DNA of 64,000 nucleotides from Pseudomonas sp. R5-89-07 (GTDB taxonomy: Bacteria; Pseudomonadota; Gammaproteobacteria; Pseudomonadales; Pseudomonadaceae). The stretch is from the NCBI RefSeq assembly GCF_003851685.1, contig NZ_CP027727.1, positions 434,001-498,000 on the forward strand, given 5' to 3'. Shown here one piece after another: positions 54,633 through 61,406 of this stretch. How positions within the stretch are numbered: the stretch's first letter is position 1; each line of letters begins with the position of its first letter. The notes under the pieces are model-generated. The model made no database searches. It saw only the letters and a program-made list of their open reading frames with translations, and was not told the origin of the DNA. Made by a program: the position numbers and the translations under genes.

Positions 54633-57098
54633 TTAGAACAGATCGATCGGCGCACTTTCATCCGCTGGCAGCGGGCTGCCCGGCGCAACGCCATTGCCCA
54701 GTTCGTTGACCGACGGCGGCGTGTCTTCGCTCTTGAACAGCTCAAAGTACGCGTTCGGCGTGCTTGGGGAGGCAGCGCGGCCACTGACCGGGTCGATGCG
54801 CAGGCTGAGAATGCCTTCCGGTTCCGGCTGGGTGTGCAGCGGTTTGTCCTTCAGGGCAGCGCCCATGTAGCTCATCCAGATCGGCAGCGCGACGGTGCCG
54901 CCGAACTCGCGACGACCCAGGCTCTCGGGCTGGTCGTAACCGGTCCACACCGTCGTCACGTAGTCGCCGTTGTAGCCGGAGAACCACGCATCCTTGGATT
55001 CGTTGGTGGTACCGGTCTTGCCGGCGATATCCGCGCGGCCCAGGGCCAATGCACGTCGGCCGGTACCCTTCTTGATCACGTCCTGCAGGATGCTGTTGAG
55101 GATATAGGTGGTGCGGCCATCCACGATGCGCTCGGCCACCGCCGGTGCCTGCGGCTCGGTCGGTGCGGGCGTGTTGGCGGCAGGCGTCGTGCCAGGCGTC
55201 GGCTCGATGGTGATGCCACCGTTGCTCGGTGCGGCGAGGCCATCGGTTGCCGCCACCCCATTGACCACATCGCCCGGCACCCGTGGCGGGTTAGCGGTGA
55301 ATAGCGTATCGCCATTGCGGCTTTCGATCTTGTCGATCAGGTACGGCGAAATTTTGTAACCGCCGTTGGCAAAGGTGCTCCAGCCAGTGGCGATTTCCAT
55401 TGGCGTGAGGGTCGCGGTGCCCAGGGCCAGGGACAGGTTCGGCGGCAGGTCGGACTTGGCGAAGCCAAAGCGGGTCATGTAGTCGATGGTCTTGCCCACG
55501 CCCATCGCCTGCAGCAGGCGGATCGACACCAGGTTGCGCGACTTGTACAGCGCCTCGCGAATGCGGATGGGGCCCAGGAAGGTGTTGGTATCGTTCTTCG
55601 GGCGCCAGACCTTGTCCAGGTACTCGTCGACAAACACGATCGGTGCATCGTTGACCAGGCTGGCGGCGGTGTAGCCGTTATCCAGTGCGGCGCTGTAGAT
55701 GAACGGCTTGAAGCTTGAGCCCGGCTGGCGCTTGGCCTGGATGGCGCGGTTGTAGTTGCTCTGCTCAAAGGCGAAGCCGCCGACCAGCGAACGGATCGCA
55801 CCATTTTGCGGGTCGAGGGACACCAGAGCACCCTGGGCGACCGGCACCTGGCTGAATTTGAGGCTGTCATCCGCCTGGCGCTGCACGCGGATCAAGTCGC
55901 CCACCTGCGCCACGTCGGACGGCTGCTTGGGCATCGGGCCCATGCTGTTGGTATTCAGGAATGGGCGCGCCCATTTCATGCTGTCCCACGCCACATGTGC
56001 TTCGCCGGTACGGGTCAGGACTTGTACACCATCTTTCTGCACCTGGGTGACGATGGCTGGCTCCAGGCCGCTGATGGAGCGCTGTTTGCCCAGCTCGGTG
56101 GTCCAGGCACTCAGGGTCTTGCCCGGCAGGCGCGATTCAGGGCCGCGATAGCCGTGGCGCTGGTCATAGGCGATCAGGCCGGAATGCAGCGAATGGTTGG
56201 CAATTTCCTGCAGGTTGCTCGGAACGGTCGTAGTGACACGGAAACCCTCGGTGTAGGCCTCGCTGCCATACCGGCCGACCATCTCGGCACGGGCCATTTC
56301 GGCGATGTAGGGCGCGTTCACTTCCGGCGTGGGCACGTGGTAGCTGGCGTTCAACGGTTCGGCCACGGCGCTTTCGTAAGCGGCCTGGTCAATCTTGCCG
56401 AGCTTGTACATACGCCCCAGGATCCAGTCGCGACGCTCCTTGCTACGCGCCGGGTTGGCCAGGGGGTTGAAGCGCGACGGCGCCTTGGGCAGGCCGGCAA
56501 TCATCGCCATCTGCGCCAGGCTGGCATCCCGAATCGACTTGCCGTAGTACACCTGGGAAGCCGCCTCGATGCCGTAGGCGCGGTTGCCCAGGTAGATCTT
56601 GTTGACGTAGAGCTCGAGGATTTCGTCCTTGGTCAACTGACGTTCGATCTGCAACGCCAGCAGGATCTCGGTGGCCTTGCGTGAAAAACTGCGCTCGCTG
56701 GTGAGGAAGAAATTCTTCGCCACCTGCATGGTGATGGTGCTGCCGCCGGATTGAATGTGTCCGCTTTTTACCAGCTGCGTGGCTGCACGCACCAGGCTGC
56801 TGGGGTCGACGCCATAGTGGTTGGCGAAGTTATCGTCTTCAGCCGACAGCAATGCGCTGATGAAATTGGGTGGAATGTCGGCGAAACGGATCGGGGTGCG
56901 GCGCATTTCGCCGAACTCCGCGATCAGTTTTTCATCGCTGCTGTAGACCCGCAGAGGAATCTGCAACTGGATACTTCTGAGGGCCTCTACGGAGGGCAAA
57001 CCCGGACTAAGGTAGAGGTAGGCCCCGCTGAGCACGAGCAGCAGCCCGCAGACGATCGCGACAATGGAGTACCCGAAAAACTTCAGCAGACGAATCAA
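54633..57098 (-). CDS. mrcA: Penicillin-binding protein 1A
   Basis: Bifunctional peptidoglycan polymerase of the inner membrane. One N-terminal span (residues 7-30) precedes the GT51 glycosyltransferase with catalytic Glu87 in LLSAEDDNF. The transpeptidase shows SSFK (Ser461), SRN (520-522) and KTG (694-696). The Pro/Thr-rich stretch 630-655 is a variable insertion. 821 residues from a TTG at 57098; no ATG or GTG is available near the conserved N-terminus. Divergent from pilM, as in P. aeruginosa and as for mrcA-hofM in E. coli. Confidence 0.95.
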   Translation of the reverse strand: MIRLLKFFGYSIVAIVCGLLLVLSGAYLYLSPGLPSVEALRSIQLQIPLRVYSSDEKLIAEFGEMRRTPIRFADIPPNFISALLSAEDDNFANHYGVDPSSLVRAATQLVKSGHIQSGGSTITMQVAKNFFLTSERSFSRKATEILLALQIERQLTKDEILELYVNKIYLGNRAYGIEAASQVYYGKSIRDASLAQMAMIAGLPKAPSRFNPLANPARSKERRDWILGRMYKLGKIDQAAYESAVAEPLNASYHVPTPEVNAPYIAEMARAEMVGRYGSEAYTEGFRVTTTVPSNLQEIANHSLHSGLIAYDQRHGYRGPESRLPGKTLSAWTTELGKQRSISGLEPAIVTQVQKDGVQVLTRTGEAHVAWDSMKWARPFLNTNSMGPMPKQPSDVAQVGDLIRVQRQADDSLKFSQVPVAQGALVSLDPQNGAIRSLVGGFAFEQSNYNRAIQAKRQPGSSFKPFIYSAALDNGYTAASLVNDAPIVFVDEYLDKVWRPKNDTNTFLGPIRIREALYKSRNLVSIRLLQAMGVGKTIDYMTRFGFAKSDLPPNLSLALGTATLTPMEIATGWSTFANGGYKISPYLIDKIESRNGDTLFTANPPRVPGDVVNGVAATDGLAAPSNGGITIEPTPGTTPAANTPAPTEPQAPAVAERIVDGRTTYILNSILQDVIKKGTGRRALALGRADIAGKTGTTNESKDAWFSGYNGDYVTTVWTGYDQPESLGRREFGGTVALPIWMSYMGAALKDKPLHTQPEPEGILSLRIDPVSGRAASPSTPNAYFELFKSEDTPPSVNELGNGVAPGSPLPADESAPIDLF

Positions 57099-57315: not shown

Positions 57316-57972
57316 ATGGGAAAGGGATTTTTCAGGCGAAAACGCGACGTCGTCCTTGGCGTCGACATCAATGACCAGGGGATCAAGCTGGTCGAACTGG
57401 GCCGCTCGGCGCAAGGGTTCAGCATTCAGGGGTATGTCACGCAGCTATTGCCGGCCCATGCGATGGTCGATGGCACATTGCTCGACCTGGCGGCGGCCGG
57501 GCGGGCGTTGCACCAGGCCGTATCCCGGCTGCACAGTGGCGCGAGTCTCGCGGCCGTGGCAGTGTCGGGCCCTTCGGTGATAACGCGGGTGATCGAAATG
57601 GCTGCAGGCCTGAGCGATGAGGAAATGGCCTGGCAGATACAGATGGAAGCCGACCAGTACATTCCTTACCCGCTGGATGAGGTAGCTCTCGACTTTCAGG
57701 TGCGCGGGTCGTCGCCTCAAGGCGCGGGGCGGGTCGAGGTATTGCTGGCGGCGTGCCTGCGTGAGCAGGTCGAGGCTCGCGAGGCGGTTTTGGCCCTGGC
57801 CGGGCTGGTGACACGGGTGGTGGATGTCGAAGCGTTTGCATTGGAGCGCGCTTGCCTTCAGGATTTTGCCAGCTTCACGCCGGGGCATCGAGTCGATGGC
57901 GCACAATGGGCCGTTGATGCCCAAGGGATGGGAGTGGCTTGCGGGTTGGCCCTGAGGAGTTTCGCTGGATGA
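57316..57972 (+). CDS. pilM: Type IV pilus-type protein PilM with internal deletion
   Basis: PilM is an actin/FtsA-like cytoplasmic ATP-binding protein that caps the PilNO complex. The first roughly 180 residues align well with the family (VVLGVDINDQGIKLVEL, VITRVIEMAAGLSDEEM, EADQYIPYPLDEVALDF). The end (GVACGLALRSF) is the normal C-terminus. Between residues about 180 and 204 there is only a short unrelated stretch, where full-length PilM (354 residues in P. aeruginosa) has about 135 more. The second phosphate-binding strand and the adenosine motif are therefore missing. 218 residues with no stop or frameshift; ATG behind AGGGAG. ATP binding is doubtful. Enteric HofM is also short. Confidence 0.88.
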   Translation: MGKGFFRRKRDVVLGVDINDQGIKLVELGRSAQGFSIQGYVTQLLPAHAMVDGTLLDLAAAGRALHQAVSRLHSGASLAAVAVSGPSVITRVIEMAAGLSDEEMAWQIQMEADQYIPYPLDEVALDFQVRGSSPQGAGRVEVLLAACLREQVEAREAVLALAGLVTRVVDVEAFALERACLQDFASFTPGHRVDGAQWAVDAQGMGVACGLALRSFAG

Positions 57973-58520
57973 CACGAATCAATCTTTTGCCCTGGCGCCA
58001 AGCGCTGGCAGAACGGCGCCGCAAATATTTCCTGGCATTGTTGCTGGCCTTTGCCTGCCTGGCGCTCGCGGCGGTGTGGCTGGCTGATCAAGTGATCGAC
58101 CAGGCGATAGACCGGCAGGTAACCCGCAATGTCCGCCTGGGTGGGGAAGTTGCCGTGCAAGACTCACGGATCAAGACCATCGACGACCTGCAGGAGCGAA
58201 GCCAGCAATTGGCGCAACGCATGAAGGTTGTGCAGGACCTGCACGATGCGCGCTCATCCGGCGCTCGGCTGTTCGATCAATTGGCTCGGACGATGCCTGA
58301 TGGGGTTCACCTGCACGAAGTGGTAGCGAGCGGGGATACGCTCAGCATCCGCGGCAGTGCAGACAGCAACCAGGATATCGCCCAGTTGATGCGCCGGTTG
58401 GAGGCGTCGCAAGGCGGCCACTCCGCGCGCCTCGAGCGGGTGCGCGCCGAGGGAGAGCGCGGCGATCATGAGTTCCAGCTGATGGTACGCCAGGGAGAAA
58501 CCATCGAGGTGCAACCATGA
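57969..58520 (+). CDS. pilN: Type IV pilus assembly protein PilN
   Basis: Bitopic inner-membrane protein of the alignment complex. The cytoplasmic tail TRINLLPWR is the conserved PilM-binding motif. One span (about residues 20-40), a coiled coil, and a periplasmic ferredoxin-like domain follow. 183 residues. The start overlaps the pilM stop as ATGA, and its end overlaps the next gene by 4 bases. The INLLPWR motif is retained although PilM is truncated, so the PilM-PilN contact is probably preserved. Confidence 0.93.
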   Translation: MTRINLLPWRQALAERRRKYFLALLLAFACLALAAVWLADQVIDQAIDRQVTRNVRLGGEVAVQDSRIKTIDDLQERSQQLAQRMKVVQDLHDARSSGARLFDQLARTMPDGVHLHEVVASGDTLSIRGSADSNQDIAQLMRRLEASQGGHSARLERVRAEGERGDHEFQLMVRQGETIEVQP

Positions 58521-59488
58521 GCCTGCCCCGGCTCGACTTTTCCGCACTCTCCCACAACGCTGCAAAATGGCCCTGGCCTGGAAGGGGCCTGCTTGGCTGC
58601 GTGCTGGCCGGCCTGGTGCTGTTGATAGGCGAGGTGTTGTACCTGGGGCCTTCGCGGGAGCGATTGCACGGGGCCGAGGTGCGGGAGCAAGTGCTGCGGC
58701 AACAGCTTGACGAAAAAACCGGTGCGGCCGCCGACCTTGAGGCGTACACCGAGCAAGTCAAGGTGATGGAAGAGGCTGTCGCGGGCCTTGAAGGACAGTT
58801 GCCCGGTGAGTCTGCAGTACCGGCCCTGCTTGAAGACATCGCTCGGCTGGCGGTTGCCAAAGGCGTTTGGGTCGAGGGCGTCGAGGTACTGGAGGAGGCG
58901 TTGCTGCCGTTCCATATCGAGCAGCCCTTGAAGATGGGCGCTACCGGGGCGTATCACGACCTTGCGGCGTTCGTCAGTGCCCTGGGTGGGTTGCAGCGCA
59001 TTGTCACGGTGCATGACGTGGCGTTGCGGCCTGGGGGTGCCTTGTTACGTCTTGAGCTGCTGGCCAAGGCCTATCGAAGCACGTCCCAGGCAGGTAAAGC
59101 GTCCCACACAGTCGTCCCGGCCCCGCGCTTTGTCTATGACTCATCTTCCCTGCGCGACCCATTCCAGCTGCTGGCCTTGCAACCGGACCACATACCTGGG
59201 CGACCAGCCCTTGCACCGGATCTCACTCGGCCCCGCGGGCTGCTGGAGGGCATTGCAATCGATCGGTTCAACATGGTCGGTACGCTGTCGGGCGGTGGGC
59301 AGACCTACGCGTTGTTGCGTGCCGGATCGACCGTGCATCGGCTGGCGGTCGGTGACTACCTCGGGCCGGATCATGGCCGGGTCATGTCCATTCAGGAGGG
59401 ACATGTCGAACTGCTCGAGCGCTTTCCCGATGAACAGGGCCTCTGGCTGGAGCGTCCACGAACATTGGTGCTAAACGTCAACTCATAA
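58517..59488 (+). CDS. PilO-PilP fusion protein
   Basis: Single 323-residue protein that joins two normally separate components. Residues 1-190 are PilO-like: a span near 22-43, a coiled coil, then a ferredoxin-like domain ending LELLAKAYRS. Residues about 205-323 are the PilP beta domain: SLRDPFQLL, then DRFNMVGTLSGGGQTYALL, VHRLAVGDYLG and LERPRTLVL. The lipoprotein signal and Cys that anchor PilP are gone. The linker near 190-204 is short and Ser/Ala-rich. The fusion would tether the secretin-contacting PilP domain directly to the inner membrane through PilO. Confidence 0.88.
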   Translation: MSLPRLDFSALSHNAAKWPWPGRGLLGCVLAGLVLLIGEVLYLGPSRERLHGAEVREQVLRQQLDEKTGAAADLEAYTEQVKVMEEAVAGLEGQLPGESAVPALLEDIARLAVAKGVWVEGVEVLEEALLPFHIEQPLKMGATGAYHDLAAFVSALGGLQRIVTVHDVALRPGGALLRLELLAKAYRSTSQAGKASHTVVPAPRFVYDSSSLRDPFQLLALQPDHIPGRPALAPDLTRPRGLLEGIAIDRFNMVGTLSGGGQTYALLRAGSTVHRLAVGDYLGPDHGRVMSIQEGHVELLERFPDEQGLWLERPRTLVLNVNS

Positions 59489-59500
59489 CGGAATCAAACA

Positions 59501-60883
59501 ATGAAAAGGATTTTCTCGTCCTTCGGTGTGGCGCTATGGATAGCGTTCACGGCGCCGATGGCTGCTGCTGTACCCAATCGCGTCGACCTGATCCACCTGC
59601 CGCCGCCCGAAAGCCCACCTGCGGTGGGTTATACGGGCGACAGACTGAGCCTTAATTTTCAGAACATCGAATTGCGCGCGGCGTTGCAGCAGATCGCCGA
59701 CGTCGCAGGCCTCAACCTGGTGGCCGGGGACGAAGTGCAAGGTTCGATCACCCTGCGGCTCAAGGATGTGCCCTGGGACCAGGCGCTGGACCTGGTGTTG
59801 CAAGCCAAGGGCCTGGATAAACGCGTGAAGGCCGGCGTATTGCTGGTGGCTCCCGCCGATGAAATGGCCGCTCGTGAACTGCTGACGCTGGAGGCGCGCA
59901 AGCAGTTGGCGGAGCTGGCGCCGTTACGTCGGGAATTGCTGCAGGTCAATTACGCCAAGGCAGCCGACCTGGCCAAGCTGTTCCAGTCAGTGACCGGCTT
60001 TGAAGGCGCGACCGACGAGCGCGGTTCGGTGGCGGTAGATGATCGCACCAACAACATCATTGCCTACCAGACCAGTGAGCGGCTGGAGGAACTGCGACGG
60101 ATCGTGGCGCAGTTGGACGTGCCGGTGCGCCAGGTGATGATCGAGGCACGCATCGTCGAGGCCAATGTCGATTACGACAAAAGCCTGGGCGCACGCTGGG
60201 GCGGGCGCCTGGATCGCGGCAATTGGAGCGCTGGCGGGATTCCCAAGCCCCAGGCGGACGGTGCACAGCCCCCCGAGAACCCACCCAGCTCACCCTTTGT
60301 CGACCTGGGTTCGCTGACCGGCACCTCTGGCCTGGGGCTGGCCTTTATCACCAACAACCTGCTGCTCGACCTCGAACTGACCGCCATGGAAAAATCCGGC
60401 AATGGTGAAATCGTCTCGCAGCCCAAGGTGGTCACCTCCGACAAGGAAACCGCGCGCATCCTCAAGGGCACCGAGATTCCCTACCAGGAATCCACGTCCC
60501 AGGGCGCTACCTCGGTCTCGTTCAAGGAAGCCTCGCTGTCGCTGGAGGTCACGCCGCAGATCACCCCCGACGACCATGTGATCATGGAGGTCAAGGTCAC
60601 CAAGGACGAGCCCGACTATCTGAACAAACTCAACGACGTTCCACCGATCAAGAAAAACGAGGTCAACGCCAAGGTCCTGGTCAAGGATGGCGAGACCATT
60701 GTCATCGGCGGGGTTTTCTCCAATACCCAAAGCAAAGTGCTAGATAAAGTGCCATTTTTGGGCGATGTGCCGTATCTTGGCCGCCTTTTCCGGCGCGATG
60801 TGCGGGCGGAGAAAAAATCCGAGCTGCTGGTATTCCTGACTCCGCGTATCATGAATAACCAGGCGATTGCTGTGAGTCGTTGA
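59501..60883 (+). CDS. pilQ: Short type IV pilus-type secretin PilQ/HofQ-like
   Basis: Outer-membrane secretin. A signal peptide (cut near MAAAVP) is followed by an STN/N0 domain ([24 protein letters not shown]), an N1 domain around [15 protein letters not shown], and the secretin beta-barrel domain ending [16 protein letters not shown]. At 460 residues it lacks the N-terminal AMIN domains of the roughly 714-residue P. aeruginosa PilQ. In size it resembles E. coli HofQ and Haemophilus ComE. It could still form a gated pore, but peptidoglycan anchoring by AMIN is absent. Confidence 0.92.
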
Positions 60884-60887
60884 TTCT

Positions 60888-61406
60888 GTGCGAAATTTGA
60901 TTCTTGTAGGGCCGATGGGCGCTGGAAAAAGCACCATCGGCCGTTTGCTGGCCAAAGAGCTGCGCCTGCCATTCAAAGATTCCGACAAGGAAATTGAATT
61001 GCGCACGGGTGCCAATATCCCATGGATCTTCGATAAGGAAGGCGAACTGGGCTTTCGCGACCGCGAGCAGGCGATGATTGCCGAGCTGTGCGGCTGCGAT
61101 GGCGTGGTATTGGCCACCGGCGGTGGCGCGGTGATGCGCGACGAAAACCGCCGCGCCCTGCATGCCGGTGGACGCGTGGTCTATCTGCATGCCTCGGTCG
61201 AGCAGCAGGTGGGTCGCACCGCCCGTGATCGCAATCGCCCGTTGCTGCGCACGGCCAACCCGGAAAAAACCCTGCGCGACCTGCTTGCGCTGCGCGATCC
61301 GCTGTATCGGGAAATCGCCGATCTGGTGGTGGAAACCGATGAACGGCCGCCTCGAATGGTGGTACTCGATATCCTTGAGCGCCTGCAACGGCTACCACCC
61401 CGTTAA
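60888..61406 (+). CDS. aroK: Shikimate kinase AroK
   Basis: Phosphorylates shikimate at O3 in the aromatic pathway. The P-loop GPMGAGKST (residues 8-16), DSDKEIE and GGGAVMR are diagnostic. The GTG at 60888 comes 4 bases after the pilQ stop and gives 172 residues. Followed by aroB, as in most gammaproteobacteria. Confidence 0.96.

Follow-up and report, generated by a model that had tools for sequence, protein, structure and literature searches.

What does a pilus assembly locus build once several of its genes have been shortened or fused? The question is raised by pilM, pilN, a fused pilO-P, and pilQ of Pseudomonas sp. R5-89-07, found at 57316..60883 of the 64,000-nucleotide stretch analyzed here (the window; positions 434,001 to 498,000 of contig NZ_CP027727.1). 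Most of what is known about Pseudomonas pili comes from P. aeruginosa. The original prediction for this DNA described a coherent, minimal machine that is specialized away from twitching and resembles hofMNOPQ of Escherichia coli and com loci. Its account of the genes was borne out: all four open reading frames (ORFs) are intact, with the center of PilM excised, PilO and PilP fused, and PilQ free of AMIN domains, and the set looks like a selected minimal machine of a nontwitching kind. In our judgment, the locus is probably the core of a functional, stripped-down type IVa pilus that is driven by the motor ATPase TfpB and does not twitch.

Pfam PilM_2 matches window PilM over profile positions 1 to 166 of 340 only. 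Aligned to P. aeruginosa PilM (5eou and 5eox), the protein corresponds to residues 6 to 181 joined to residues 320 to 356, the second stretch being a weak match of about 12 bits, and the 138 residues between them (182 to 319) are gone from its center. The nucleotide-binding half is thereby lost, leaving no complete actin-like ATPase fold, and the retained half folds like PilN-bound PilM. The shortened protein passes the NCBIfam pilM cutoff (178.5 versus 133 bits) and also matches the cyto-GspL folds 4pht_X and 1yf5. PilN begins with MTRINLLPWR, the PilM-binding motif (the solved complex is PilM:PilN1-12). We scanned 141 loci, the window and 140 relatives (29 loci from genomes with PilB, termed PilB+, and 112 PilB-less), with models built from the 29 PilB+ loci, whose own full match is thus partly by construction, and compared both motifs across the set. 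The phosphate-2-like motif of PilM was present in 29 of 29 PilB+ loci. Neither it nor the LxGG motif was found in any of the 40 loci of the window clade, and the other PilB-less groups had the phosphate-2-like motif in 0 of 7, 0 of 42 (the P. putida-type clade), 1 of 8, and 7 of 15 loci. The PilN motif [I/V]NLLP[W/Y]R was found in 29 of 29 PilB+ loci and, for the same PilB-less groups, in 39 of 40, 7 of 7, 3 of 42, 8 of 8, and 13 of 15; of the putida-type exceptions, the eight inspected read [L/M]NL[L/M]PWR. Two loci (L063 of G007 and L091 of G096) have PilM and PilN in one open frame besides the PilO-P fusion, which makes a three-gene version, and the start of PilM in G096 lies in another frame.

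The third gene is a single ORF matched by both Pfam PilO and Pfam PilP, and its product matches the PilO soluble domain (2rjz) and the PilP HR domain (2lc4). The lipoprotein start of PilP, seen in six unfused relatives, is missing from the fusion. In window PilQ, we identified STN, Secretin_N, and Secretin domains and a GspD N0 match below its cutoff, and the domain scan found no AMIN domain; control proteins scanned likewise had two AMIN stretches in one PilB+ relative and one in an intermediate relative. Residues 43 to 460 of window PilQ are equivalent to residues 278 to 714 of P. aeruginosa PilQ, both AMIN domains of which are gone, and the protein passes the IV_pilus_PilQ cutoff (TIGR02515; 505.8 versus 284.35 bits). 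The window thus shares with P. aeruginosa PilMNOPQ its gene order, type of locus, and the domains of PilN, PilO, and the PilP HR domain, but differs in these losses, in the fusion, and in having no PilB.

As had been proposed, the locus occupies the place of hofMNOPQ in E. coli K-12, with mrcA divergent upstream and aroK-aroB-damX downstream; ComABCDE of Haemophilus is a further counterpart. The E. coli secretin likewise lacks AMIN domains, HofM barely matches PilM_2 and has no phosphate-2-like motif, and HofN keeps INFLPWR, all of which is like the window set. HofM compared with PilM profiles gave no convincing match (probabilities of 0.1 and 32 per cent). HofO and HofP are separate proteins that match their own Pfam families, whereas PilO and PilP of the window are fused, and the Pseudomonas reduction, unlike hof, is nested inside lineages with full PilMNOPQ. 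We rejected membership in HofMNOPQ on the HofQ NCBIfam cutoffs, which window PilQ did not reach (288.3 versus 554 and 234.6 versus 598 bits). The resemblance to hof therefore holds for place and layout and fails for subfamily: judged by its sequence, the window set is a reduced PilMNOPQ converging on the hof layout, outside the HofMNOPQ subfamily.

The whole genome, a single contig of 5,997,145 bp, holds most of the remaining pilus machinery. PilA (137 amino acids; prepilin model, 38.7 versus 16.3 bits) matches the P. aeruginosa-type pilin 1oqw at 3.7e-16 and is encoded divergently from pilC. The PilC/GspF-family protein beside it (402 amino acids) falls below the NCBIfam equivalog cutoffs (GspF, 365.1 versus 424; PilC, 356.9 versus 700) and was named by place and sequence, as was a PilD-like ORF of 288 amino acids with no NCBIfam match at E 0.01. 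PilT is present in one copy (479.1 versus 319.1 bits to pilT_fam), and no second PilT-family ATPase was found in this genome. A minor-pilin cluster is present without pilY1, for which the genome gave no match; its pilV was recognized by model, and its fimT, pilW, pilX, and pilE are presumed from gene order and prepilin starts. ComEC (741 amino acids) scored 333.4 versus 190.05 bits to ComEC_Rec2. Of the pilin, PilB, PilC, and ComEC genes to which the original prediction had tied a working machine, PilB is thus the one absent: the best TIGR02538 match in the genome scored 503.8 bits against a cutoff of 675.65, and the starts of pilA and pilC lie 198 bp apart with no pilB remnant between them. 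In 10 of 10 PilB+ loci examined, pilB separates pilC from a pilin gene, which is divergent in nine. Instead, the genome has a TfpB-like ATPase at 5.69 Mb that matches NF053534 (TfpB, E 2.8e-251) far above the PilB or GspE models and keeps the Walker A, Walker B, Asp, His, and two CxxC motifs (the alignment had ten control rows, of which L185 was in the wrong frame and was left out). In Acinetobacter baylyi, TfpB works beside PilB, whereas the ATPase of the window genome apparently works alone. As a side observation, the TfpB of the window genome (L023:5145-6830) just misses the model cutoff, so automatic annotation may leave such motors unnamed.

A filament other than a pilus could in principle have recruited the PilM-to-PilQ core, for instance type II secretion with a GspE motor. 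The shape of the machine does approach that of a type II secretion system (T2SS): the secretin has an N0 domain and no AMIN, the HR domain is carried on a membrane-anchored protein (the layout of GspC served for comparison), and the half-size PilM resembles cyto-GspL. The genome also contains two further clusters, one at 2.26 Mb and one at 3.85 Mb, each combining a T2SSE ATPase with several N_methyl pilins, which we take to be T2SSs. However, no PDZ domain was seen on the window fusion, the pilins, PilT, and the locus all belong to the pilus type, and PilA, PilC, the PilD-like protein, PilT, and the minor-pilin cluster have all been kept. In addition, only one of the four ATPase candidates scored in each of two genomes (G176 and G197) matches TfpB at E 1e-100 (3e-247 and 7e-248), with no GspE close enough to show. 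We consider recruitment very improbable. Separately, two more T2SSE-family ATPases (frames of 522 and 379 amino acids) lie close together in the window genome (G000:C1:967507-971175), possibly on an integrative element.

To place the window in its genus, we searched 298 evenly drawn Pseudomonas genomes, scoring six PilM candidates and four PilB/TfpB ATPase candidates per genome; frequencies are to be read from these surveys. PilM_2 was found in 296 of 298 genomes and fell into two score classes, with 115 genomes weak scoring (shortened or diverged) by a line that we set at E 1e-120. PilB (TIGR02538) passed its cutoff in 167 genomes, leaving 131 without a full match. None of the 115 weak-PilM genomes had a full PilB match, and all 167 PilB+ genomes were in the strong PilM class. 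The other 16 PilB-less genomes have a strong PilM or no PilM match, and five of them (G034, G075, G076, G177, and G223) may be incomplete or fragment cases. We rejected draft assembly as a general cause of missing PilB because PilB-less genomes in single contigs include G003, G017, G061, G099, and G171. A TfpB-like best match beyond E 1e-185 was found in 296 of 298 genomes (the exceptions being G080 and G218) and in 129 of the 131 without PilB. Counts in 79 chosen genomes (18 PilB+ and 61 PilB-less) gave PilY1 in 18 of 18 versus 4 of 61 and two or more PilT-family matches in 18 of 18 versus 3 of 61, so that 58 of the 61 had no second one.

The locus itself forms a graded series of reduction in the 112 PilB-less loci, measured against PilB+ ORFs of 354 to 375 (PilM) and 680 to 748 (PilQ) amino acids. 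Full domain content remains in five (G021, G128, and G264, plus G080 and G243 with a split PilM), one AMIN domain in four (G073, G172, G204, and G272), and a full PilM without AMIN in five (G061, G071, G251, G293, and G297). Sixteen have a shortened PilM with PilO and PilP separate, and in 82, versus 0 of 29 PilB+ loci, PilO and PilP are fused; the fused loci come from two clades, one with 40 genomes (one per species) and one with 42. Domain edges recur as well, the PilQ match starting at model position 155 to 159 or 257 to 285. The layout is thus not private to the window, and the observation is larger than the one first made. It is also not due to chance, because the same shortened and fused genes recur across dozens of species. 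A private deletion or an assembly artifact was rejected, given the single contig and a fused layout common to 39 sampled relatives of the clade.

Loci with organism titles showed the same classes (96 with a PilQ match, several with too little upstream sequence; 80 of 119 stretches listed, with L281 to L319 also used; PilB status taken only where records match sampled genomes). Fused loci were found in P. canadensis, P. poae, P. grimontii, P. yamanorum, P. edaphica, and P. costantinii on the one hand and in P. putida HAI-2 and 31753, P. guariconensis, P. japonica, and P. entomophila on the other, sets labeled here as the fluorescens and putida groups. AMIN-less, unfused loci were found in P. 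protegens, P. fragi, P. helleri, and P. saxonica, and full loci in P. syringae, P. fuscovaginae, and P. gingeri. A record titled Pantoea sp. Cy-639 (L245) has a fused Pseudomonas-type pil locus and is probably a mislabeled genome.

A FastTree phylogeny of MrcA, AroK, and AroB, genes beside the locus, covered 139 rows of this sample, which is enriched for reduced loci, and left 30 forks open; two loci (L068 of G025 and L073 of G045), in which mrcA, unlike in other loci, was not found in the stretch fetched around the pil locus, were dropped. The minimum number of changes on the tree was 6 for PilB status, 8 for AMIN number, 4 for PilM shortening, 7 for the phosphate-2-like motif, and 2 for the PilO-P fusion. 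In five independent pairs differing in PilB, the other trait differed in the same direction or not at all, never in the opposite one.

These results suggest a pared-down pilus whose mode of action differs from that of the crawling pili in other species. TfpB would be its sole extension motor, docking on the half-size PilM, and the PilO-P fusion would link the N0 ring of PilQ directly to the complex in the inner membrane. A machine with no AMIN domains to anchor it would not stay at the pole, in line with the requirement of P. aeruginosa for these PilQ domains in polar placement (PMC5285504), and would bear no twitching loads; its product would be short or sparse, nonpolar pili with a role in spreading on surfaces, adhesion, or capture of DNA. 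PilB loss would come first and the trimming after it, several times in the genus. Beyond this, we tentatively propose, as something still short of probable, that loss of PilB and reliance on TfpB free the nucleotide-binding half of PilM, the peptidoglycan anchoring of PilQ, and the separate PilP lipoprotein from selection, so that a polar twitching pilus has been reduced repeatedly, and in the same order, to a minimal nonpolar machine like those of T2SS or Com.

A TfpB-driven pilus has several observations to contend with. The pilus, its motor, and its localization are predicted here from sequence. The TfpB-like ATPase of the window genome scores 835 bits, below the model cutoff of 850, and has two short deletions relative to its relatives; that cutoff was passed in only 206 of 298 genomes, the window genome not among them. 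Independent contrasts on the tree are few (5 to 6 pairs), with sign test P values of 0.125 to 0.25 for AMIN and 0.125 to 1 for the PilM motif, and with five pairs the test cannot reach 0.05. P. aeruginosa PilQ without its AMIN domains gives stable but nonfunctional secretin oligomers (PMC5285504). According to an excerpted report, ATP binding by Thermus thermophilus PilM is dispensable for stimulating the motor in vitro, so loss of the PilM ATP site need not be tied to a motor swap. In the excerpted text of PMC12918733, almost no pili were seen by microscopy in P. putida.

The last group of such observations bears on a decaying relic, that is, a pilus dead since PilB was lost and a locus eroding by in-frame deletions. 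Median ratios of nonsynonymous to synonymous substitution rates (dN/dS; pairs with dS outside 0.1 to 1.2 dropped) in the 40-genome window clade were 0.211 (PilM), 0.128 (PilN), 0.294 (PilO), 0.194 (PilP), and 0.095 (PilQ), versus 0.056, 0.112, 0.124, 0.126, and 0.092 in 18 PilB+ genomes, with 0.030 for aroK and 0.038 for mrcA as flanks. PilM, PilO, and PilP thus evolve faster than in PilB+ relatives, though still under purifying selection. The putida-type clade, with dS near saturation, gave 0.17 to 0.53 overall and 0.35 to 0.53 for M, N, O, and P (its aroB gave no pairs). The PilT match has an in-frame TAG in 5 of 79 genomes (G198, G292, G116, G106, and G024), and PilT was not found at E 1e-80 in 2 of 79 (G009 and G256, both among the 61 PilB-less), so retraction may be decaying in places. 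A gene broken across two frames was seen in 6 of 112 PilB-less loci (G080, G096, G116, G144, G186, and G243) and in 1 of 29 PilB+ loci; the splits in G144 and G216 are in PilO and may be chance second matches. The Fisher value computed for these loci takes no account of kinship and was set aside. Against a relic, however, all five gene parts were found in 141 of 141 loci, genes were unsplit in 106 of 112 PilB-less versus 28 of 29 PilB+ loci, PilN and PilQ of the window clade are about as constrained as in PilB+ genomes, and the fusion extends over both fused clades. The remaining machine is intact and still under selection in the window clade, where the check for decay proposed beforehand revealed none, and we regard a relic as unlikely.

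DNA uptake by the window machine is possible. As a competence machine, the locus would work in the manner of the E. coli Hof and Haemophilus Com systems, building a short pseudopilus that draws DNA in through PilQ and on to ComEC, and the hof-like place and losses agree with this, as does the ComEC gene in the window genome. TfpB supports transformation in A. baylyi, according to excerpts of Ellison 2021 (PMC8213720), which also note P. fluorescens A506 as having tfpB only. ComEC, however, was present in 80 of 80 genomes tested, including 18 PilB+, and so does not discriminate, and surface spreading of P. putida on soft agar is reported to occur only with pilA (PMC12918733). We rate a dedicated competence machine as a lesser, rather doubtful possibility. 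The same paper describes P. putida as having no clear PilB, undemonstrated twitching, and, as cited there, nonpolar appendages, phenotypes that fit a TfpB-driven, nontwitching pilus. PilB-less pseudomonads have been known before, one strain or species at a time, and our searches of the open-license literature turned up no description of PilM, PilO-P, and PilQ being trimmed together and repeatedly.

The features of the locus are collected in Table 1. Adjacent genes overlap by ATGA at pilM/pilN and pilN/pilO, and a promoter scan found none. The ORF from 62642 is presumably damX. At window positions 60880-60896, a stretch of 17 bases (TTGATTCTGTGCGAAAT) that runs from the pilQ stop into the start of aroK is shared without change by 116 of 121 loci; TTGATTCTGTGCGAAAT is the best-shared 17-mer of the region and is perhaps an aroK expression element.

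Table 1. Coordinates of the pil locus and its neighbors in the window
Feature	Position	Strand	Remarks
pilM	57316-57972	+	218 amino acids, intact ORF
pilM, retained first half (residues 1-179)	57316..57852	+	corresponds to residues 6-181 of P. aeruginosa PilM
pilM, C-terminal tail (residues 180-218, ...ACGLALRSF..) and stop	57853..57972	+	structure alignment, motif counts
pilN	57969-58520	+	183 amino acids; MTRINLLPWR start, hydrophobic helix
pilO-P, fused gene	58517-59488	+	323 amino acids, one ORF
pilO-P, PilO part	58517..59083	+	hydrophobic helix, long helix, alpha-beta domain like PilO 2rjz
pilO-P, linker at the fusion	59084..59200	+	low predicted local distance difference test (pLDDT)
pilO-P, PilP HR domain and stop	59201..59488	+	matches 2lc4 and 2y4x
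pilQ	59501-60883	+	460 amino acids; signal region, then residues 43-460
mrcA	54633-57098	-	divergent neighbor, locus marker outside the machine; recognition and BLAST across relatives
aroK	60888..61406	+	downstream neighbor, locus marker; recognition and BLAST across relatives
aroB	from 61532		downstream flank; recognition and BLAST across relatives

Taken together, the 131 of 298 sampled genomes without a full PilB, 115 of them with a shortened or diverged PilM, include members of the P. fluorescens and P. putida groups and amount to a natural experiment on which pilus parts belong together, on what the PilM ATP site and the PilQ AMIN domains do, and on whether TfpB alone can drive a pilus. 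A TfpB-driven pilus of this kind may explain why P. putida pili have been reported as nonpolar and why its pilus-dependent spreading has been reported as independent of FimV. If the proposed order of reduction is true, the puzzling ATP site of PilM would be a PilB-specific feature.

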